A stretch of DNA of 64,000 bases, taken from contig NZ_VCIA01000001.1 of NCBI RefSeq assembly GCF_005887555.1, positions 1,550,001 through 1,614,000 on the forward strand. The letters run 5' to 3'. The position numbers and the translations under genes are program-made. Below the pieces are notes generated by a model, which saw nothing but the letters and a program-made list of their open reading frames with translations, was not told where the DNA came from and did no database searches. Numbering within the stretch: position 1 is the stretch's first letter; each line of letters starts with the position of its first letter. This DNA comes from Lentibacillus cibarius (GTDB lineage Bacteria > Bacillota > Bacilli > Bacillales > Amphibacillaceae). Positions 6,591 through 58,370 of this stretch are shown here, piece after piece.

Positions 6591-6658
6591 TAACTGCAAA
6601 TTTCGAAAAAAATATTAGAAAAAAAAGGAAGAAGGACCCGCGCGCCCTGTGCGGTGCA

Positions 6659-7427
6659 GATCCGTCGATGTGCAGTGCTTTTCCGTCGATGGGCGCTCCT
6701 ATTCCGTTGATGTGCGGCGCTGTTCCGTTGATGTGCGGCGCTATTCCGTTGATGGGCGGGGCTGTTCCGTTGATGTGCGGCGCTATTCCGTTGATGTGCA
6801 GTGCTGTTCCGTCGATGTGTGGCGCTATTCCGTCGATGGGCAGTGCTATTCCGTCGATGTGCGCTGCTATTCCGTCGATGTGCAGTGCTATTCCGTTGAT
6901 GTGCAGTGCTATTCCGTCGATGGGCGCTCCTATTCCGTTGATGTGCAGTGCTGTTCCGTTGATGTGCGGGGCTATTCCGTTGATGTCCGGCGCTGTTCCG
7001 TCGATGTGCAGTGCTATTCCGTCGATGGGCGGGGCTATTCCGTTGATGTCCGGCGTTGTTCCGTCGATGGGCGGGGATATTCCGTTGATGTGCAGTGCTA
7101 TTCCGTCGATGGGCGGTGCTGTTCCGTCGATGGGCGGCGCTATTCCGTTGATGTGCAGTGCTATTCCGTCGATGGGCGGTGCTATTCCGTTGATGTGCGC
7201 CGCTATTCCGTTGATGTGCAGTGCTATTCCGTTGATGAGCGGTGCTGTTCCGTTGATGTGCGCTCCTATTCCGTTGATGTGCAGTGCTATTCCGTTGATG
7301 TGCGGGGATGTTCCGTTGATGTGCGCTGCTATTCCGTTGATGTGCGGCGCTATTCCGTTGATGTGCAGTGCTGTTCCGTCGATGTGCGGCGCTATTCCGT
7401 TGATGTGCGCTCCTATTCCGTTGATGT
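6659..7427. repeat. 21-bp minisatellite, array 1 (about 37 units)
   Basis: An uninterrupted head-to-tail array whose unit has the core TTCCGTYGATG followed by variable SC-type and GCT positions. The period is 21 bp throughout. Units differ mostly by transitions and by swaps between a few allowed triplets (TGC, GGC, TCC; then GGC, AGT, GCT, GGG). Because the unit is a multiple of three and lacks stop codons, several frames on both strands stay open over the whole array; these open frames lack ribosome binding sites and are not called as genes. It lies between mbl and a NERD-domain gene, in a place where B. subtilis has mbl and spoIIID adjacent. Confidence 0.95.
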
Positions 7428-8651: not shown

Positions 8652-9292
8652 CCCGTCGATGAGCGGCGCTGTTCCACGATGGGGCAGCGCTATTCCGTTG
8701 ATGTGCGGGGCTATTCCGTCGATGTGCGGCGCTGTTCCGTCGATGGGCGGGGATATTCCGTCGATATCCGTATCTATTCCGTTGATGCGCGCCGCTATTC
8801 CGTCGATACCCACCTCTATTCCGTTGATGCTCACCGCTATTCCGTCGATGCTCACCGCATTCCGTTGATGTCCACCCCTATTCCGTTGATGCACACTCCT
8901 ATTCCGTCGATGCGCGCCGCTATTCCGTTGATACCCACCACTATTCCGTTGATGCTCACCGCTATTCCGTTGATGCACACCACTATTCCGTCGATGCGCA
9001 CCTCTATTCCGTTGATGTGCGGGGCTATTCCGTCGATACCCGCATCTATTCCGTCGATGTCCACCTCTATTCCGTCGATACCCACCTCTATTCCGTCGAT
9101 GTGCACCTATATTCCGTCGATGTCCACCGCTATTCCGTTGATGCTCACCGCATTCCGTTGATGTGCGGGGCTATTCCGTCGATGCGCGCCGCTATTCCGT
9201 CGATACCCACCACTATTCCGTTGATGCGCGCCACTATTCCGTTGATACCCACCGCTATTCCGTCGATGTCCGCTCCTACCGCTATTCCGTTT
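8652..9292. repeat. 21-bp minisatellite, array 2 (about 30 units)
   Basis: The same core TTCCGTYGAT as array 1, again with a 21-bp period, but more diverged in the variable half (GCTCACCGC, ACCCACCTC, GCGCGCCGC). Two short units, near 8853 and 9151, have lost bases (CACCGCATTCCG), breaking the frame. It fills the space between the NERD gene and the spoIIID transcription unit. Open frames over the array are by-products of the repeat. Confidence 0.93.
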
Positions 9293-9756: not shown

Positions 9757-10477
9757 ACCGTTCGCCTCCCTAAGTTGGATATTTCCGAGGTGTGGGTTGA
9801 GACAAGGTGATACAATGTCACGCTGTTCACTCTTCTTTTGGATACGGACTTCTGTGCAGCTGTAGCTGTCGTATATATGGATCAAAACGAGAAAAAATGT
9901 ACGCTTGAGGTTGATATGTAAGCAGATACAAAAGTTGGTCGGTTGGAAGGAATGCTACACAAGCTCTCACCTCAGACTTTTCTGAATGCTCGATTTGTAT
10001 CATTTTATTATGTGCTGGCGTGGATTATGATTAAATTTACGTCATTTAGAATAGCGGACATGCAGTATTTTTGAGGTGTCGGGCGATTTTCGAATGATGA
10101 CGAGCAGGTGGAAACCTTGCTTACGCGGGCGTTCATTGGAAAATAGTGGGATAACCGTTTGAGGATTCAAAAAGAGGATACACGTTTCTGATTCGAACAG
10201 ATGATACACGTTTCTGAATGGGTGGGATGTCACTCACGTATTGCTTCTCCTTGATGGTGGCAATGCGTTCCCCCACGTTCTTTTCCAGGCCGGTGTGAAA
10301 ATAGGGAAGGCTTACGTTGGCCGTTGTTTATCCAACTCGGCATGTTATTGCAGTAGCAGATCCGGGTCGCCGGTGAGCACAAGGATCACCTGCATGGCTG
10401 TTTCCACCGAGTTTAAAGGGAGAAAACATTACCCTAAGAAAAGCCTTGCCCTATTTTCCATTCGTGGTAGTTGGTAT
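9757..10477. other. 720-bp gene-free stretch with degenerate sequence
   Basis: No intact gene is supported between spoIIID and the AimR-like gene. The minus strand carries broken frames (for example LEKNVGERIATIKEKQYVSD around 10230-10290, and VILVLTGDPDLLLQ ending near 10350) that look like remains of one or more genes which I cannot identify. Two direct repeats, GATACACGTTTCTGA at 10177-10191 and 10203-10217, are 26 bp apart, a layout reminiscent of transposon end repeats. The spoIIID promoter should lie at the lower end, but I could not place it. Confidence 0.45.
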
Positions 10478-11518
10478 TCAAGCCATATCTAGTTTATAAA
10501 GTGCATTGAGTGGCAATCTACTGAAAAAATAGTCGTTTCGTTTTTCAACGAAGCTATTATATGACTGAAGGAGGATGCCTTTACTCCGCTTCGCCATACC
10601 TAGGTAGTACAATTTGAACGGACTGTCTATATCAACGTCTTTTAAAATGGTTTCTGCTTTAGCATAATTTCCTTTGGCTAGTTCGATGTGTGCCTGTTCG
10701 CTTTTGTCTGTCGTCGTTATGTCATCGAATCTTCCAAAGTGGGCTGATAGAAATGGGATACTCCGCTGCTCAATGGATTTAGCTTGCTTGTCCATCTTTT
10801 CCGCCCGGGCAATTTCCAATGCTTTATACAAATGGTATATACCTTGTTCGTACGTGTCATAAACATACGATAGTCCTAAATGGATGTGCATATTTATTTG
10901 TGTGCCCGGATTCGTCATTTGGTTCAACGCTTGGAATGCATATTTCCGTGCTACGATTGCCGCATTGCGGAACAAATAGTAGACAAATAAGTGTTGATAT
11001 AGCCGGATATTAAAAGAAGATAGAAGAAATGGATCATTTATCTTATTAAATAGTTTTTGCTGTTTTTCCAGGAAATTACCAAATTCTCCATATGCGTTTC
11101 TCCTGTAATGAACAATAATTTTGATGAATTCAATTAACGACTGCAGCTCTGGTTCATCGGTTTGCAGTCTGTTCGTACGCCTGAGTATTTCATTTGGCGG
11201 GTAGCGCTTTTGTTTCTGATCGAGAGTAAGCTGATAGACTGCTGCCCAATGTTGAGTTGACAGATTTTCCGACTCTTTATTCCGATTGATTAATTGCTGC
11301 AAATCGTTATCATATCCATTCACGTATAAAAATTCCATTCCCTTTTTCCGGGCATCATCCGAGGAGGACTGCAAACAGTAGCTTCGTGCCACTTGCTGCG
11401 CTGTCTTCTCGTCATACTTATGCCGCGACAGCAATAATATTTGCTCAAGGGTTACCTGACTTACATCAGCTATGTTTGGGATTGCATTGGACAGGGTATC
11501 GGCTGTTAACTCGGACAT
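10478..11518 (-). CDS. AimR-family (arbitrium) peptide-receptor homologue lacking the N-terminal HTH
   Basis: A 346-residue all-helical TPR protein. It aligns colinearly with phage phi3T AimR as I recall it: ARSYCLQSSSDDARKKGMEF with its KDYCLN...ARSALEY region, LGLSYVYDTYEQGIYHLYKA with its SYLTIGNSLLFSNYELAQ region, and a C-terminal KRNDYFFSRLPLNALYKL matching NDKFLIRLPLLELQKM. AimR binds a secreted hexapeptide and sets the lysis-lysogeny choice. Here the ~50 residue N-terminal DNA-binding region of phage AimR is missing: the protein starts at ATG 11518 (AAAGGGAG six bases upstream) and has its own promoter just before. No phage genes and no intact aimP are visible. It may be a domesticated signalling receptor; function is inference. 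Confidence 0.72.
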   Translation of the reverse strand: MSELTADTLSNAIPNIADVSQVTLEQILLLSRHKYDEKTAQQVARSYCLQSSSDDARKKGMEFLYVNGYDNDLQQLINRNKESENLSTQHWAAVYQLTLDQKQKRYPPNEILRRTNRLQTDEPELQSLIEFIKIIVHYRRNAYGEFGNFLEKQQKLFNKINDPFLLSSFNIRLYQHLFVYYLFRNAAIVARKYAFQALNQMTNPGTQINMHIHLGLSYVYDTYEQGIYHLYKALEIARAEKMDKQAKSIEQRSIPFLSAHFGRFDDITTTDKSEQAHIELAKGNYAKAETILKDVDIDSPFKLYYLGMAKRSKGILLQSYNSFVEKRNDYFFSRLPLNALYKLDMA

Positions 11519-11798: not shown

Positions 11799-12746
11799 TT
11801 ATTGGTTGTCTGATGTGGAAGGTGAATCGGTTGGATTTTCACCTTCTGCATCTGGCTTTTCGGTTTTTTCCTCGTCGTTTGATGGTTCTTCTTTATCGGT
11901 TTTATCGGATTGGTCGGATGATTCATCGGACTTATCGGATTCATTCTCTTCCTTAGAAGATTCTTCTGATTTCTTGCTGTCGTCTGATTCTGCATTCTTT
12001 TCGTTTTTGTCAGAATCGGTGTTTTCCTCTTCCTCTTCGGACTTTTCATCGTCAGTCATGACCTCATCCAGTGCACTGACCGGCTGGTTGAAGAATGTTT
12101 CCGGATTAACGGCTTCTTCATCTTTTCTAATTTCAAAATGAACATGGGTGCCATTGTCTTTGCCGAATAGGCTCTCTCCGGCGGTACCAAGCACATCGCC
12201 TTGTTCCACTTGATCCTCAGCAGAAACGTTCACCTTGCCGAGACTTGCATAATGCGTTGTTACACCATTTTCATGTGTCAGTGTCACCTTATTGCCCATG
12301 AGTGGGTCTTCCTTGACTTCTGTAACTTTACCACTTAACGACGCTTGTACATCAAATGTTTCCCCATCATCAGCAGCGATGTCAATACCGGTGCTTTGAT
12401 AGTAGCGATTGTTAAAGACAACAAGGGCATTCTCCTGCTCTTTTTGATCTGCGTCGTAGTCATAGTATTTAGTTACGATTTCTGCTTGATCCATGTTCTC
12501 AACAGGCCTCTGGATGATTTCCTGCTGATCCATGACAGGCTTTGCTTCCCGGTCATGTTCAACCGGTGTATAATCTTCCGTATCTGGTTCTTCCTGGCTT
12601 TGATTCATCTGATTGTCAAGGTTCTGGTACCAGACCACCAACGACAGGAGCAATGCAGCAACCGTCAAATACACTGCTGGAAAAAACCACTTCTTGCGTA
12701 AAATGCGACTCCACTTATTTTTTGGAGTTTTGTTTTCTTCTGTCAT
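11799..12746 (-). CDS. spoIIQ: Stage II sporulation protein SpoIIQ (degenerate LytM/M23 domain)
   Basis: A 315-residue forespore membrane protein: cytosolic N-terminus, one membrane segment (about residues 23-42), a LytM/M23 domain (about 110-215) and an ~85-residue Ser/Asp/Glu/Lys tail. SpoIIQ interacts across the intermembrane space with SpoIIIAH and is needed for engulfment and SigG activity. In the M23 fold the first zinc-binding His is replaced (YYQSTGIDIA, Ser in place of His), while HVHFEI is kept, the same loss as in B. subtilis SpoIIQ, so it is probably not an active peptidase. It lies immediately downstream of spoIID as in B. subtilis. The very acidic tail is longer than I would expect. 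Confidence 0.93.
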   Translation of the reverse strand: MTEENKTPKNKWSRILRKKWFFPAVYLTVAALLLSLVVWYQNLDNQMNQSQEEPDTEDYTPVEHDREAKPVMDQQEIIQRPVENMDQAEIVTKYYDYDADQKEQENALVVFNNRYYQSTGIDIAADDGETFDVQASLSGKVTEVKEDPLMGNKVTLTHENGVTTHYASLGKVNVSAEDQVEQGDVLGTAGESLFGKDNGTHVHFEIRKDEEAVNPETFFNQPVSALDEVMTDDEKSEEEEENTDSDKNEKNAESDDSKKSEESSKEENESDKSDESSDQSDKTDKEEPSNDEEKTEKPDAEGENPTDSPSTSDNQ

Positions 12747-12900
12747 ATGTCATCACCTCAACAACCATTCTGAGCAGAAAAATCAAAAACTATACATTTT
12801 ATTCATAAAAATTCCCTGGATTCATGCATTTTTCTGTGAAAGTAGGGAAACGTAAAGGAATCAAGCGTGCTGAAACTAGTTTTTATTCCGGCACAACAGC

Positions 12901-14444: not shown

Positions 14445-14650
14445 TTAAGCCACGTCCGGCTACAGCGCCCAGCGACTAGCGCGACTTCCTTCACCTCCGT
14501 CCGATAAGTCAACATCGACTCCCTATGGTCGTCGTGTTTCCTTTATCTCCTTCGGCTAGTTAGGAAGATCGGCTAACCCCACCGCGATGCGCGGCAACGC
14601 CGACCCACCTGCGACGCGCAGGCGCAGTCCGTACGTCGCTAACCGGGCGC
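14445..14650. repeat. Long dispersed repeat, copy A
   Basis: A ~200-bp gene-free block running up to the stop codon of ykfD. It shares long, nearly identical words with the block at 58112-58370 (GGCAACGCCGACCCACCTGC, GAAGATCGGCTAA, CAGCGCCCAGC) and with 52815-53280 (GTGTTTCCTTTATCTCC, CGATAAGTCAACA). It contains the inverted words GCGCGGC and GCGACGCGCAGGCGC, so it could fold into a long RNA hairpin. No open frame is supported. Confidence 0.8.
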
Positions 14651-41916: not shown

Positions 41917-42519
41917 TTAGCTATCCAATTTTTCCACCAGTTTATTCACATACGTTTCCAATTCAGTCAGCGTCTGCTCGTAGATGGTTCTCCCGCCGCC
42001 AAACGGGTCGGCTATATCATAATCGATCAGGGCCGCTTCCAGTTGACGGATTTTTTCCCATTCGCTTTGTAAATGTTTCTCCAATTCCTGCTCAAGCTGT
42101 TTACCGTCAAGATGCCGGAACTCCTGCATCAGGCGCGCTCGTTTCTCCTCATAGTCGGCACGCCGCTGGGTCAGTTCCTTCCACCGATCTTCATCGGCTT
42201 GGGAGACATATTCTTTCAGCGTGTAATATTTTTCCTGAAAGTCGGGAAATTCCATGATGAGCGACTGCTTATGCCCTGTCGTCATCGTCAGAACCAGATC
42301 CGCCCAACGGAGCAATTCGTCTGTCACCGGCTGTGATGCTGTATTTATGGAAATGCCTTTTTGTTTCAGCACCTCGATTGCCTGGTCATTCGGGCGCTGG
42401 CTATGCGCAGCAAAGATACCCGCCGATTGAACCGCGGCAGCAGGCACTTTCTGTTTTAATAACGCTTCTGCCATGGGACTCCGGCATGTATTACCGGTGC
42501 AAACAAACAATATATTCAT
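41917..42519 (-). CDS. ywlE: Low-molecular-weight protein arginine phosphatase YwlE with internal insertion
   Basis: A 200-residue phosphatase of the LMW-PTP fold. The P-loop is CTGNTCRSP with Cys7; Thr11 is the residue that favours phospho-arginine over phospho-tyrosine. The general acid Asp171 lies in ADPFGGGRTIYEQT. YwlE counteracts the arginine kinase McsB. B. subtilis YwlE has about 150 residues; here a ~58-residue charged, probably coiled-coil segment (about residues 108-166, rich in Glu, Arg, Gln, Lys) is inserted between LKEYVSQ and the DPFGG loop. The insertion keeps the frame and uses ordinary codons. Confidence 0.9.
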   Translation of the reverse strand: MNILFVCTGNTCRSPMAEALLKQKVPAAAVQSAGIFAAHSQRPNDQAIEVLKQKGISINTASQPVTDELLRWADLVLTMTTGHKQSLIMEFPDFQEKYYTLKEYVSQADEDRWKELTQRRADYEEKRARLMQEFRHLDGKQLEQELEKHLQSEWEKIRQLEAALIDYDIADPFGGGRTIYEQTLTELETYVNKLVEKLDS

Positions 42520-42879: not shown

Positions 42880-43182
42880 AAGCAACAGATATTATAATTA
42901 CACCAGCTCGACAATATTGGTGTTGATATTAATATAGATGCCGATGCTATTGCACGACGATTGGATCCGGAAAATCCAACTGCAAAAAGAGTTGCTGCGG
43001 GAAAAGGTTCAATTGAAACAACCCTTGCTGGAAAGAATGCGCTTAAACAAATAGCGAAAGCAAAAGAATATGGTTATGAAGTGACTATGCTTTAATTGCA
43101 CTCGGGTAATGTTAGTAAAAATATCGAAAGAGTTGCAATGAGGGTTAAGAATGGCGGTCATGTTATTTATTCCGTGAAAGCG
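42880..43182 (+). pseudogene. Zeta-toxin-like kinase remnant
   Basis: Reading frame 42928 on the plus strand gives INIDADAIARRLDPENPTAK, then SIETTLAGKNALKQIAKAKE and, after an in-frame TAA at 43093-43095, NIERVAMRVKNGGHVI. These correspond in order to the conserved NADEIA...PENP, ETTLSGK and NIERVKxRVxxGGH segments of zeta/UNAG-kinase toxins. The N-terminal P-loop is missing, about 20 residues are deleted before the ETTL motif, and the frame is interrupted, so it is a decayed fragment. It lies on the strand opposite to the small-gene array, whose first repeat abuts its 3' end. Confidence 0.7.
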
Positions 43183-43200
43183 CCCGATCGTAAAATTTTT

Positions 43201-43389
43201 CTAACTACTTTTGTTATTTTTTAAGCTTAATAACTCATAAAGGCAGATACAAAAGAGAAAAATTACGCCTAAAATTATAAAGCTACTTACTTTAGGTAAA
43301 TCTAAAATAAAGATTATTAAGATAAATATAATAGCAACTATACTCGCTTCTAAATATTCTCTTTTCTTTGAATTTCTTTTGTTGGGCAT
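43201..43389 (-). CDS. Array gene 8: small two-helix membrane protein
   Basis: A 62-residue protein: a basic N-terminus (MPNKRNSKKREYLEA), two hydrophobic helices (about 16-32 and 36-54) and a short polar tail. GGGAGTG lies five bases before the ATG. No family recognised. It is the last gene of the minus-strand array. Confidence 0.6.
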   Translation of the reverse strand: MPNKRNSKKREYLEASIVAIIFILIIFILDLPKVSSFIILGVIFLFCICLYELLSLKNNKSS

Positions 43390-43476
43390 AATATCACTCC
43401 CACACTATGGCTCCAATAAGTGAATACACGCTTATTAAACAACTGCGCCCGATTGTGTAGCAAAGTATATTCCAAT

Positions 43477-44175
43477 CTAAATCTCAGCACCCCCTGAAGA
43501 TTCCTTCTCTTCGTTACTCAATTGCGCAGAGTATTGCGCAATTTTATTGCTAACAAAAAGGAATGCTAAAAAAATCAAAGCGCTAAATATCCAACCACTT
43601 ATATTCATATATATAATTACTTTATCGTAGCCGTTTGCTCCATATGATTTGATTAAAGATGCCTTTAATGAATTCAAAAAAAGACCACGAAAAACAAATA
43701 ATAAATTTACTAATTGAAACCATAAAAATAAGCCTTTTGATTTATATAACTTTCGACTATCTTTGCGAGAGTAACCCTGCAAGTATGCCACATCTACAGC
43801 GAAATAAAGTGCCAATGGTTTTTTTATTATTGTTGAGATTAAAAAAATCACTCCGAAACCATAGCCAAGATACACCTGATTCCAAAGCATATTATTTGCA
43901 GATGTAGATAATAAATTAACAGCAGTACTAATAAACAACGATGTAATAACGAAAAGCCCAGCTATGTTGAGCTGCTTTTCTTTAATAAAACGATAAACAG
44001 TATAGATAAATCCAGGAACGGTTGACAAAAGTATAGCCGTGTAATCGCCAAGTGGCTCTCTTCCATAATTCCATATTAAAAAGGGTATAGCTCCATAACA
44101 TATCAAATCCAGAATCATAAGTCTTTTATTCATCGGCGTCACCAAGCAATCAAAAAACCCCTTTCTGACATTCAA
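43477..44175 (-). CDS. Array gene 7: multi-pass membrane protein, possibly VC0807-like
   Basis: A protein of up to 232 residues with about six membrane helices. The segment LICYGAIPFLIWNYGREPLG and PGFIYTVYRFIKEKQLNIAG resemble the VC0807/septation-protein-A-like family; the assignment is tentative. The start is unclear: TTG 44175 lacks a good ribosome binding site, and TTG 44145 or ATG 44133 (MNKRLMILDLICYG) fit the family N-terminus better. By far the largest gene of the array. Confidence 0.65.
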   Translation of the reverse strand: MNVRKGFFDCLVTPMNKRLMILDLICYGAIPFLIWNYGREPLGDYTAILLSTVPGFIYTVYRFIKEKQLNIAGLFVITSLFISTAVNLLSTSANNMLWNQVYLGYGFGVIFLISTIIKKPLALYFAVDVAYLQGYSRKDSRKLYKSKGLFLWFQLVNLLFVFRGLFLNSLKASLIKSYGANGYDKVIIYMNISGWIFSALIFLAFLFVSNKIAQYSAQLSNEEKESSGGAEI

Positions 44176-44280
44176 AGGTCATCTCTACAAAATAATATAA
44201 ATTCCCTTTTCTATAAAAATAACGGTTATCTTATTCATGATAAGCGCCCTTTAACGGAAGAAAGCAAGATGTTTCATTCT

Positions 44281-44553
44281 TCACATATTCGAGATTCCTA
44301 TCCCGACAAAAATTAAACCGAATATTATAGAGCTTAATAATAGTATAATGAAGCAGGTAATAATGATAATAAAGTTTCTAAAAGAACCTAGAACGAGATA
44401 TCTGACGAAAGAAACCCAACCTGTTAATACAAATAGTAATATAATACATACTTGTAAAAATTGGGGTAAATATAAATTGTAGGAGACAGGGAAAAAAATA
44501 AGCCACGCTAAAAATAAGTATTGTCCAGTTAGTGATAAAATTAAAAATTTCAA
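44281..44553 (-). CDS. Array gene 6: small three-helix membrane protein
   Basis: A 90-residue, very hydrophobic protein with three predicted helices (about 4-24, 32-52 and 60-86) and only a few charges (VSFVRYLVLGSFRNF between helices 2 and 3). It begins at TTG 44553, seven bases after GGGGAG. No family recognised. Confidence 0.6.
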   Translation of the reverse strand: MKFLILSLTGQYLFLAWLIFFPVSYNLYLPQFLQVCIILLFVLTGWVSFVRYLVLGSFRNFIIIITCFIILLLSSIIFGLIFVGIGISNM

Positions 44554-44602
44554 ACCTTATCTCCCCTTATTCCCGAAAAGCGCCTTTTTGTTGAAGAGAC
44601 AA

Positions 44603-44749
44603 TCAATCCAAAGAGTTTAGCTTATTATATAAGACCCTTTTCTTTCGTTCTATTTTCTTGACCTTTTTAAAAGTAATTAAAGAGAGAATCACTAATAACG
44701 TATACATCTCACTGTATTTATCGTTTTTGTAGTCATTTATAATATCCAT
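44603..44749 (-). CDS. Array gene 5: 48-residue single-helix protein
   Basis: MDIINDYKNDKYSEMYTLLV opens a 48-residue protein with one hydrophobic helix (about 15-27) and a strongly basic tail (FKKVKKIERKKRVL). AAAAGGAGTTGG is well placed before the ATG. It is too short for usual gene calling. Repeats flank it on both sides, as for the other array members. Confidence 0.6.
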   Translation of the reverse strand: MDIINDYKNDKYSEMYTLLVILSLITFKKVKKIERKKRVLYNKLNSLD

Positions 44750-44785
44750 ACAGAACCAACTCCTTTTCAGGAATACTAATTTTAT

Positions 44786-45043
44786 TCAAGGAAAGCGCCC
44801 GATTGTTTTATTTTTTGTTTTTGAAATCCTCAGCCTTTTCTGCAGATATATTACGGCAAAGGCAATGGCAAGGATGTACAATACTCCATCTATAATTCTA
44901 ACAGTTACCGTGTATTCAAAGAATGTACTAGCCAAGAATCGCAGTACCCCAATAGCAACTAAGTCAATTATCATTATCCATTTATAGAACTTGTAACTAA
45001 TAATAATCCCTCCAACTTCCACAAAATGGCCCAATTCAGGCAC
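44786..45043 (-). CDS. Array gene 4: small membrane protein, uncertain start
   Basis: Up to 85 residues with two helices (about 22-40 and 51-66: WIMIIDLVAIGVLRFL, IIDGVLYILAIAFAVIYL) and a basic tail whose last codons (KTIGRFP) are encoded by the GGGCGC repeat itself. The formal GTG start at 45043 has no ribosome binding site. A good one, GGAGGG, lies further in and is followed by ATT ATT ATT, so either an ATT start is used or the start codon has mutated. Confidence 0.5.
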   Translation of the reverse strand: MPELGHFVEVGGIIISYKFYKWIMIIDLVAIGVLRFLASTFFEYTVTVRIIDGVLYILAIAFAVIYLQKRLRISKTKNKTIGRFP

Positions 45044-45137
45044 AGTGCTTATTCAACAACTGCGCCCTATTCTGGAACAATGCCTTTTCAACAACCGCAT
45101 CCTATAGTACGCTCAGAGCTTTTGATAATCGTCCATC

Positions 45138-45254
45138 TTAACCCTTATTACCATTTTTTGTACTTTTGATGGACCGTATAACCATCCAAGTGACGAAACC
45201 AATCAAAGAGACAAAAATGATAAGTGCAATATTGGCAGTACCTATTATTTCCAT
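45138..45254 (-). CDS. Array gene 3: 38-residue single-helix protein
   Basis: MEIIGTANIALIIFVSLIGF is followed by VTWMVIRSIKSTKNGNKG: one membrane helix and a basic tail, like array gene 5. AGGAGGGATAGA precedes the ATG directly. Too short for usual gene calling; its ribosome binding site and its place between two repeats support it. Confidence 0.6.
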   Translation of the reverse strand: MEIIGTANIALIIFVSLIGFVTWMVIRSIKSTKNGNKG

Positions 45255-45342
45255 TCTATCCCTCCTGTTATTGCTGTCCTATATGTGATTGTTCAACTTT
45301 TGCGCCCGTTAATGAAAAAGGCGTTATTACTCCAAAGAATAT

Positions 45343-45669
45343 TTATCCTCTTTTTGATGAACTTGAAAATTTAAATATTGCAACCAATAGGGTAATAATA
45401 CTTAATGCCCAAAAGACACCTGCAAAACCTATTTGTAGCGAATTCTCTTCAGAAGCCATCGGGTGGTTGTAATCAAGTTGTAAAGTAACAGCATTCATAA
45501 AGAAAACGAACGCAATTGATAACAGTATTAAATGCACCAAAATTAACAAATAAGCTATGCTGTTCCTTTTATTTTTAACCCATAACGCGATAGTGGATAT
45601 CGAAAATACTAAAACGATAAAAACAAAACCAATTATCAATAAATTTGGAACCTCTTGCTCTAAAGGCAC
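45343..45669 (-). CDS. Array gene 2: small three-helix membrane protein
   Basis: A 108-residue protein with three helices (about 8-30, 37-60 and 80-100). It starts at GTG 45669 after GGGGGATAATT. No family recognised. Stop codon lies 35 bp before the next repeat core. Confidence 0.62.
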   Translation of the reverse strand: MPLEQEVPNLLIIGFVFIVLVFSISTIALWVKNKRNSIAYLLILVHLILLSIAFVFFMNAVTLQLDYNHPMASEENSLQIGFAGVFWALSIITLLVAIFKFSSSSKRG

Positions 45670-45795
45670 AATTATCCCCCTAACCTTTTACCTTAAAATT
45701 ATAACTACTTTAACAACGCGCAATGAAGTTGTTCAACATAATGGCCCATTTCATTAAGGGCGCCAATACTTATTCCCTATTAGCGCCCGATTGCT

Positions 45796-46113
45796 TTATA
45801 ATGCGCTTCTTTCGCGATACAAGCGCAACGTAAGTGCATTTAACAAAATGGTAACTATGACAAGTACCGTTGAAGCAACAGCTACACCGCGCATTGTATC
45901 TGCCAGTGCAGCAAAGTCTTCAATTTTTACCAAGTAAAGGTTGTAAAAAATTTGAAAACATATTGCGATAGCACAAACGCTAAAACTGATAATGGTAAGA
46001 GCAATCCATTTCATATTCATCTGTTTTTTACCTACCGCAAGATTAATAAAAAGAATTATCCAAGCTATTAAACCAAGCATCAAACTGCCGAGGTTAAGCA
46101 AACCAGCACCCAT
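45796..46113 (-). CDS. Array gene 1: small three-helix membrane protein
   Basis: A 105-residue protein: helices at about 8-27, 34-58 and 75-97, with a KKQMNMKW basic turn. AAGGTGGG precedes the ATG by 11 bases. Its stop lies eight bases before a GGGCGC core. First gene of the array in the direction of transcription; no promoter could be placed with confidence upstream. Confidence 0.62.
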   Translation of the reverse strand: MGAGLLNLGSLMLGLIAWIILFINLAVGKKQMNMKWIALTIISFSVCAIAICFQIFYNLYLVKIEDFAALADTMRGVAVASTVLVIVTILLNALTLRLYRERSAL

Positions 46114-46275
46114 TATAAGTCATCCCACCTTCATTTTCTTTCTAAATTTCTCCTCAATCTGGCCCGTTTGTTGAAGAACAAAATGTTCATATCCTTGTAT
46201 ATATTCTAACATATATTAGAAAAAATCTTTGTATTCTTTTATTTAGACTTTTTATTAACGGAGCATTTGACATCA

Positions 46276-46519: not shown

Positions 46520-47074
46520 TTAGCCAAACAGAACATACAGCCCGAACCCGCAAAGAATACTGCCGCCGAGCATTTCACTGTACACACCAAGCAATCCATG
46601 CACTTTTCTCCCTAAGATCATCCCGGCCCACGTAAGGACCATGCTGGCGGTGGCGAACGACAATAACGTCACCACTGTTCGTACTTCTGACATACCAAGG
46701 CTAAGCCCAACGGAAAAACTGTCAAGGCTGACACTGAGAGCAAAGAACAACAGCCCCATCCCTGCAGGCTGCACCAGTTTTGGAGATTCATAGTTAAACG
46801 CGGAGAAAAACATTTGTGCTCCAATACCAAACAACAACAGTCCACCGATTAGTGTTGTATAATCACCAAATTGACCCGAAATGGCTTGTCCCAGCAAAAT
46901 ACCAATAAACGGCATGATGATATGAAAGATGCCAATGACCACTCCGATAAATGCAATCCGTTTCAGCCTGAGCTGCTGCATCCCCAGACCAAGGCTGACG
47001 GAAAAGGCATCCATCCCGAGCGCAATGGCCATAAACATAATTGATACGAATTCCCCTGCATAATAAACTGCCAT
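46520..47074 (-). CDS. mntP: Manganese efflux pump MntP
   Basis: A 184-residue membrane protein with six helices arranged as two DUF204 repeats. The metal-binding acidic residues are in ALGMDAFSVSLGLG and ALSVSLDSFSVGLSLG, which repeat the same D-x-F/S pattern. It exports Mn2+ across the cytoplasmic membrane. It was named ywlD in B. subtilis and lies next to ywlC there too. No yybP-ykoY riboswitch could be recognised in the 175-bp upstream gap. Confidence 0.92.
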   Translation of the reverse strand: MAVYYAGEFVSIMFMAIALGMDAFSVSLGLGMQQLRLKRIAFIGVVIGIFHIIMPFIGILLGQAISGQFGDYTTLIGGLLLFGIGAQMFFSAFNYESPKLVQPAGMGLLFFALSVSLDSFSVGLSLGMSEVRTVVTLLSFATASMVLTWAGMILGRKVHGLLGVYSEMLGGSILCGFGLYVLFG

Positions 47075-58111: not shown

Positions 58112-58370
58112 CCAATTAAGCCATGTCCAGCTCCAGCGCCCAGCAACTAGCAAACTTCCCACTCCTCCACTACGATAAGTCAAGTTCATCTAATCTTATT
58201 GCGGCTAGTAGGGAAGATCGGCTAAACCCGCCGCGACGCGCGGCAACGCCGACCCACCTGCGACGCGCAGGCGCAGTTTGTACGTTGCTACGACGCACAG
58301 GACGTGCTAGTGCAGGCGTTGTCACAGGACGTGACGGTTTTAGCCTGCAAGGGCGCTTACGCTTTTCTTA
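58112..58370. repeat. Long dispersed repeat, copy B, between murAB and the transaldolase gene
   Basis: The 465-bp gap between the two genes is mostly filled by this block, which shares GGCAACGCCGACCCACCTGC, GAAGATCGGCTAA and CAGCGCCCAGC with the block at 14.45-14.65 kb. It adds ACAGGACGTG twice and GCCTGCAAGGGCGCTTACGC at the end, where it touches the stop codon of the downstream gene, as copy A touches ykfD. Confidence 0.82.

Follow-up and report, generated by a model that had tools for sequence, protein, structure and literature searches.

Between mntP and ywlE in a 64,000-nucleotide stretch of the Lentibacillus cibarius genome (contig NZ_VCIA01000001.1, forward-strand positions 1,550,001 to 1,614,000; hereafter the window) lies an island at 43155-46180 that comprises eight minus-strand open reading frames (ORFs) of 38-232 codons and nine copies of one site with the core GGGCGC. 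This site, the single-gene units that it delimits and a tyrosine recombinase gene that accompanies it in related bacteria are the subject of the present analysis. The ORFs bear out an earlier note on this DNA, which had described eight consecutive minus-strand genes of this size between mntP and ywlE, separated by a repeat. On one flank stands mntP (46520-47074, minus strand), a 184-amino acid ORF with 73-78% identity in 11 congeners, and on the other ywlE (41917-42519, minus strand), a 200-amino acid ORF that adjoins mntP without an array in the congeners. The two genes are 4.0 kb apart in this genome, with the array in between. The array is absent from the interval in all 11 congeners, in ten of which the distance is 157-488 bp and in the eleventh about 1.9 kb without sites. 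This comparison, which the earlier note had proposed as a check, indicates that the island was acquired at the ywlE-mntP position.

Eight of the sites were found by profile (at 45788, 45307, 45067, 44800, 44585, 44249, 43450 and 43185), and a weak ninth lies at 46165. All sites and cassette genes are on the minus strand and are taken here from the mntP side. The weak site 0 (46160-46178; profile score 7.4 bits, E 0.89) has a left arm, TTCTTCAACAAAC, and GGGCCA without the stem (6/11 pairs). It is followed by cassette 1 (gene at 45796-46113), for a 105-amino acid membrane protein with no Pfam match, which has related DNA in locus L009 (88%) and, as judged by eye, a similar protein in L041. Site 1 is full length (45725-45810, GGGCGC at 45788-45783; 46.8 bits) and retains 11/11 stem pairs. 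Cassette 2 (45343-45669) encodes a 108-amino acid membrane protein with a weak match, below cut-off, to DUF4181 and precedes site 2 (45287-45333, GGGCGC at 45307; 19.3 bits, 5/11 pairs), and cassette 3 (45138-45254), for a 38-amino acid membrane peptide with a similar ORF at L001:8102-8218, precedes the full-length site 3 (45012-45089, GGGCGC at 45067; 42.5 bits, 9/11). Next come the cassette 4 ORF (44786-45043, a membrane protein of up to 85 amino acids) with site 4 (44770-44818, GGGCGC at 44800; 25.8 bits, 6/11), the cassette 5 ORF (44603-44749, 48 amino acids, not clearly membrane by the hydrophobicity scan) with site 5 (44564-44606, AGGCGC at 44585; 25.7 bits, 7/11) and the cassette 6 ORF (44281-44553, a 90-amino acid membrane protein) with site 6 (44221-44273, GGGCGC at 44249; 24.8 bits, 9/11). 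Cassette 7 (43477-44175), for a membrane protein of 232 amino acids (218 with an inner start) without a Pfam match, is followed by site 7 (43391-43475, GGGCGC at 43450; 33.0 bits, 8/11), and the ORF of cassette 8 (43201-43389, a 62-amino acid membrane protein) by the last site of the array, site 8 (43155-43206, GGGCGC at 43185; 26.0 bits, 6/11). A strongly hydrophobic 19-residue window is present in seven of the eight island proteins, so that the claim that all are hydrophobic holds for every gene except the 48-codon one (maximum 1.19). At least eight of the 11 stem pairs are kept in four of the nine sites; the remaining five look decayed.

Abutting site 8 on the plus strand is a relic of a P-loop gene (43008-43166), called zeta-toxin-like here from the P-loop motif alone, without a family search. 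Its DNA is 91.9% identical to L057:5481-5639, and the match stops inside site 8. An intact 201-amino acid relative of this relic adjoins the gene of the 280-amino acid recombinase described below in locus L074 (genome G003).

The site is about 80 bp long and consists of a left arm, TTATTCAACAATC, the six-base core GGGCGC, a stem and then GGGCCA...GAATAAG. The consensus, TTATTCAACAATC-GGGCGC-TATTCCGGAATAAG-GATTA-GCGCCC-...-GGGCCATTTTGTGGAATAAG, is based on 39 aligned copies and on a profile rebuilt over loci from six genomes. In the stem, GGGCGC and the following five bases pair with five bases and GCGCCC. Xer sites likewise have two inverted arms flanking a six-base centre. The pattern GGGCGC-N5-TTGAATAAG, with up to three mismatches, has eight matches in the window, all on the minus strand at 43166-45788, against 2.15 expected, and none of 100 shuffles reached eight. 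The repeat of the earlier note is therefore real; the short motifs into which it had been divided are parts of one site, present in nine copies. The tandem repeats that had been read as traces of a lost unit (45788/45747 and 45067/45030) each belong to a single full-length site, which has one box of the GGGCGC... type and one of the GGGCCA... type. Over the whole genome the pattern matched 52 + 71 times, compared with 30 + 25 for a reversed-pattern control, and the matches are clustered (161-193, 243-293, 1593-1595, 1715-1719, 2330-2338 and near 2854 kb among others); the genome holds dozens of site copies in several arrays. With profile model R1, each of the 11 congeners searched had 17-143 copies, and 25 of the 30 genomes had one match or more.

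Pairing in the stem was examined by an alignment-free swap test on 371 sites (391 less 20 duplicates). Exchanging the five stem bases among sites weakened the fold (z -12.8), while exchange of five loop bases as a control gave z -1.0, which indicates that the stem is maintained by covariation. Nine or more of the 11 pairs were present in 264 of 604 sites and in 44 of 599 control stretches, an excess that arises partly because the profile spans both boxes. An ungapped set of 55 of 69 listed sites, biased in that it was chosen for stem length and pairing, had 91.2% of cells paired against 79.1% when shuffled. A pseudoknot joining the left arm with GGAATAA and GGGCGC with GCGCCC was rejected, there being no excess over shuffles. 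Nested pairing on the alignment used for that comparison was not in excess either, we think because stem length varies, and RNAalifold predicted no pairs on the site alignment. At gathering thresholds, Rfam found nothing in the array of the window, its only matches being to Bacillaceae-1 RNA outside the array, and in six array loci it found one group II intron and no curated family at the site.

Comparison within and between genomes yielded 35 pairs of homologous units (at least 80% identity and cover). A DJ-1/PfpI cassette was 98.7-99.9% identical across four species (G000, G003, G007 and G011) with neighbors that differed on both sides, and two further units, outside a block shared by G006 and G011, were 100% identical between species. 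Single cassettes were common to different species at 95-100% DNA identity; given that MntP of the window's genome is only 73-78% identical to that of congeners, these cassette transfers are recent. By sequence comparison, single cassettes occupy different places in different arrays and species. When the ends of 54 between-genome matches (at least 95% identity) were located, 45 of 101 usable ends lay at a site. When all 108 ends were placed at random 200 times, 2.96 fell at a site on average and never more than 10. The DJ-1 cassette accounts for nine of the 54 matches and for 17 of the 45 site ends; without these matches the figure is 28 of 83. A search for cassettes in plasmids gave only partial matches, at 66-69% identity.

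The position of the junction was resolved by aligning units across their sites. Where two units shared their downstream cassette (30 pairs), matching stayed at background as far as base -1 and was near 1 once the core began; where they shared the upstream cassette (44 pairs), it was about 0.95 across the core and fell to background after it. These pairs are not all independent, and eight duplicate loci were dropped. Both sets indicate that homology begins and ends within the six-base GGGCGC, a fixed junction of the kind the earlier note had suggested looking for, inside the repeat and at the edges of single gene-plus-repeat units found in different arrays and species. Its comparison with the GTTRRRY half-site of attC is not upheld, as the exchange point would lie in GGGCGC. 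Base 6 of the core differs in one left and one right pair, and bases 1 and 5 differ in one right pair; these few spacer variants tentatively place strand exchange between core bases 1 and 4. Exchange inside GGGCGC would mean that both covarying stretches, which lie on one side, travel together and that the left arm is replaced each time.

The genes between sites were surveyed with our own simple ORF caller. The gene upstream of a site shared its strand in 341 of 387 cases, and in 229 of those 341 its stop codon fell within 60 bp before GGGCGC. Site-to-site units of 120-3000 bp (n = 313) had a median length of 669 bp, and their main ORF was on the same strand in 257 units, on the opposite strand in 32 and missing in 24. 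A strongly hydrophobic window was found in 140 of 244 cassette ORFs of at least 60 amino acids, so that the all-membrane cargo of the window's array is not a general rule. The 93 cassette proteins scanned, of 232 distinct ones (aligned solely as a vehicle for scanning), matched 102 Pfam families, none of them in more than four proteins; GNAT, glyoxalase, DinB and DJ-1 families were among them. PADLOC gave strong matches to the Nhi and AbiO models (one each, perhaps in one protein).

A recombinase of 285 amino acids beside the largest array (L001:5340-6197) was the first candidate enzyme and was dropped because, among 30 genomes, close copies (above 80% identity) were confined to two in G000 and, in G011, a single copy plus a piece. 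The coordinates of this closely conserved tyrosine recombinase, limited to these two genomes, are G000:C1:160343-161197 and 2374644-2375498 and G011:C1:761627-762481, one copy being beside the largest array. A different enzyme, a Xer-type recombinase of 280 amino acids that occurs across Bacillales, was traced by a PF00589 search in seven genomes. In 20-kb contexts of 20 copies of its gene, a site of at least 15 bits was present in 16. A scan of named genomes gave 347 recombinase loci, of which the best 80 were kept (at least eight are repeats of genomes already in the set); by name, these 80 represent some thirty genera, including Lentibacillus, Sporosarcina, Virgibacillus, Neobacillus, Lysinibacillus, Sutcliffiella, Rossellomorea, Fictibacillus and Halobacillus. 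At the 80 loci, 109 hits at 1e-4 were obtained when the Lentibacillus profile was first applied. With the rebuilt profile, sites lay within 8 kb of the recombinase in 70 of the 80 (254 hits), and the reversed sequence gave none. At a fixed search size and with one profile, sites were near 68 of the 80 loci (233 hits, 1113 kb) and near none of 34 control loci (115 kb), of which 19 were mntP loci from other genomes and 15 were loci of other recombinases. The co-occurring recombinase that the earlier note had asked after is thus found among sites in most of the loci examined, and its gene is locally linked to them.

The arrangement of gene and sites varied with rank. In the 51 higher-ranked loci the recombinase gene mostly runs in the same direction as the sites; 24 of these loci have a site that begins 148-222 nt upstream of the gene's start. 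A site was present no more than 260 nt upstream in 26 of the 51, compared with 17/51 for the opposite-strand control and 5/49 for the interval 900-1160 nt upstream. Among the 29 lower-ranked loci the usual direction of the gene is opposite to that of the sites, and 15 of them have a site on the other strand no more than about 180 nt beyond the stop codon (controls, 1 and 3). The recombinase is intact in 68 of the 80 loci. A LexA-like GAACN4GTTC occurs within 230 nt upstream of the gene in three of the 80 only (L180-L182, Halobacillus and Sediminibacillus).

Among 120 genomes of the bacterial family, the 280-amino acid recombinase was matched at 1e-45 in 27 (18 of 46 genera), several copies being broken, and 23 of these matches were at 55% identity or more. 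Sites were present in 21 of the 23 positive genomes and in 53 of 97 others (p = 6.5e-4), the four matches at 36-41% identity being left out under a 55% cut of our own; with all 27 counted, the figures are 24/27 and 50/93. Recombinase and site tallies per genome were taken to refer to the same genome draw, as the handles agree. Matches at 1e-60 numbered 927 proteins, and the best 120 of these include members of the Bacillus cereus group and one named as plasmid-borne. Twenty-one plasmid records matched at 1e-40, with at least 54% identity in 8 of 20 among the matches listed, and matches in seven phage records were all below 60%. Plasmid pSHB26 of Peribacillus simplex (L214) carries two close tyrosine recombinases (9873-10724 and 12001-12840), one of which belongs to the 280-amino acid family.

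Family models place the enzyme nearest to Xer recombinases. It scored 215.5 bits with the XerA-type model NF040815 (cut-off 220), 197 with XerC (335) and 194 with XerD (330), and one of three copies tested (L101) was just over the XerA cut-off at 220.3 bits. Against the integron-integrase model TIGR02249 the score was 99.1 bits (cut-off 265), two other copies scoring alike, and with PRK15417 it was 62 bits (cut-off 435). The NCBI name of some copies, "site-specific tyrosine recombinase/integron integrase," is the wording of the NF040815 model. Profile matches to PDB structures covered XerA and XerD nearly in full without a large insertion, and IntI4 over 201-267 only (67 residues). In a tree that included 52 of the 68 intact copies and L074, all 53 recombinase copies grouped in a single clade (support 0.74), separate from the XerC and XerD sequences taken from that bacterial family.

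Two kinds of mobile element insert into the sites. A group II intron family, found in L001, L002, L003, L004, L036, L047, L055, L056, L057, L069, L072, L113 and L123, starts directly behind the left arm and core in 16 of 17 copies in 73 array loci, a count to be read with two facts in mind: the query had a site at its beginning, and the loci had been selected around sites. The copy in L056 is preceded by AGTGCGC, and L004 and L072 share one copy through common DNA. Twelve members of an insertion sequence family of IS110 type were found, and the three examined (L001:6739-7938, recognized by Pfam, L002:8827-10020 and L004:13416-14615; ends inspected) all lie between the left arm and GGGCGC. Three early supposed cassette junctions in L001, L002 and L004, with ends "...taatacgaac," proved to be IS110 ends and were discarded.

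We infer cassette recombination from these comparisons and consider it highly probable that the Bacillales arrays constitute an integron-like single-gene cassette system with a linked Xer-type recombinase and exchange in GGGCGC. Several observations weigh against this. Common ancestry among the sites may inflate the swap test, and the outer arms show sequence conservation and no covariation (z -0.8), as would be expected from exchange inside GGGCGC. A five-unit block is shared intact by G006 and G011, 56 of the 101 match ends are not at a site, and the several arrays of a genome stand at different places rather than on one platform. Four of the 20 recombinase contexts had no site above 15 bits and 10 of the 80 loci none at E 0.01, the profile for the 80-locus linkage having been rebuilt on hits from those same loci. 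At the order level, presence of the recombinase was not associated with presence of sites (30/50 and 116/199 genomes; p = 0.48), and genomes with sites and without a recombinase match are common, including that of the window, G010, G012 and G017. By these numbers, many arrays are without a linked enzyme, as are integron clusters lacking an integrase (PMC9024848).

The same figures bear on the reading that housekeeping XerC/XerD or another unlinked enzyme recombines the cassettes and that the 280-amino acid recombinase is mere cargo. The 116 of 199 genomes with at least one site and no such recombinase fit this reading, as does G017, with 40 sites and three PF00589 matches of which two are XerC and XerD, and the recombinase gene, at those loci that resemble the query most closely, is co-directional with the sites, as a cassette would be. 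We nevertheless regard it as unlikely: sites accompany the recombinase in 68-70 of 80 loci, one of them stands 148-222 nt upstream of it in 24 of the 51 higher-ranked loci, and large site numbers are commoner in genomes that have it (at least eight sites in 14 of 50 at the order level, against 17 of 199 without it; p = 6e-4). For classical integrons, too, clusters without an integrase are common, according to the IntegronFinder 2.0 paper (PMC9024848).

A passive repeat, whether intrinsic terminator, REP-like (repetitive extragenic palindromic) element or RNA-processing hairpin, that spread between genes and served as a patch for homologous recombination would account for the T-rich stretch behind the stem in 135 of 224 sites of other loci and for whole-site fold energies just mildly below those of shuffles (mean z -1.2 to -1.3, 120 sites). 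In array loci L001-L072, however, the T-rich stretch follows only 62 of 248 stems, homology ends within six bases despite site similarity over about 80 bp, and strand uniformity is left unexplained. The earlier note had offered RNA processing sites or passive REPs as its alternative; since fixed junctions and a linked recombinase remain unaccounted for, such readings are insufficient, and we hold a passive repeat to be very improbable. Scarcely any weight, and if anything slightly less, falls to the idea that insertion of IS110 elements or group II introns at the same site produced the appearance of cassette exchange. Both do insert at the core, and IS110 ends did account for the discarded junctions, but the DJ-1 and other aligned units are single genes among different neighbors with no insertion sequence or intron seen inside, and several mapped arrays have neither element between sites.

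For the cassette system that we favor, a cassette would consist of the GGGCGC core, the covarying stem, the GGGCCA box, a ribosome site, the gene and the left arm of the next site. The 280-amino acid recombinase would most likely excise and insert cassettes by strand exchange inside GGGCGC, core, stem and gene moving as one and each new neighbor supplying the left arm. Its role as the acting enzyme and the order of strand exchanges are proposed by us here from comparison; folded single-stranded DNA may be the substrate, as for attC, and the site beside the recombinase gene may act as an attI-like entry point. The window holds no integrase, as the earlier note had correctly stated, nor was a close copy of the 280-amino acid recombinase found in the whole genome at the limit used; the genome has other tyrosine recombinases (27 PF00589 matches). 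The enzyme would have been lost from this genome or never have been present there. The array of the window is best read as a cassette cluster without an integrase and with several decayed sites, and the decay is consistent with a genome that has no close recombinase copy.

Elsewhere in the window, Bacillaceae-1 RNA (RF01690) has three matches, at 58206-58350 and 14557-14622, two of which stand side by side on opposite strands. Self-comparison revealed two related tandem-repeat stretches, at 6648-7427 and 8653-9278, perhaps of one repetitive gene.

The suggestion of a Gram-positive cassette or gene-collecting system is supported at the comparative level, and the likeness to integrons is extensive: one-gene cassettes in one orientation that appear to move singly with fixed junctions, structured sites with a covarying stem, a tyrosine recombinase beside many arrays, the existence of arrays without an integrase (CALIN in integrons) and a cargo of small unknown, GNAT and defence-like genes. 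Sites of the attC type, too, attract IS110-type elements and group II introns. The recombinase, by contrast, is Xer-like and far under the integron-integrase cut-off, the sites are not attC, exchange falls in GGGCGC rather than GTTRRRY and, in the orientation of the genes, at the 5' foot of the hairpin, and there are several arrays per genome. The system works like an integron but lacks two defining features that were tested, an IntI-type integrase and GTTRRRY attC sites. XerA, XerC and XerD provide the closest family models and solved structures, yet the recombinase forms a clade separate from the XerC/XerD in the tree, and its sites differ from dif in being multi-copy, in arrays, with an extra stem and box. 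REP and bcr repeats, compared here in general character, are likewise short imperfect palindromes between genes in many copies; the present sites differ in delimiting mobile genes with a fixed junction.

Integrons are described as extremely rare in Firmicutes, with one complete case, Limnochorda pilosa, and a few CALIN, in the IntegronFinder 2.0 paper (PMC9024848). No description of a system like the present one was found in searches of open-access full texts, a coverage that excludes subscription papers and preprints. A second, separately evolved integron-like system is our best reading. Whether it is a second integron in the stronger sense, in which a Xer-lineage recombinase without the I2 helix acts on folded single-stranded hairpin sites in some thirty genera and on plasmids, is a matter on which we are divided and lean slightly toward doubt. 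The I2 helix in the catalytic core is a hallmark of integron integrases and is called exclusive to them (PMC7790495), and the arrays raise the question of whether hairpin sites can recombine without it; if so, single-strand cassette recombination would no longer be exclusive to IntI. The system would offer a second natural case of how cassette recombination evolves from Xer enzymes, and tools that seek IntI and attC would miss it. A widespread cassette system independent of IntI would explain the trade in small genes, including defence-like ones, among Gram-positive bacilli.

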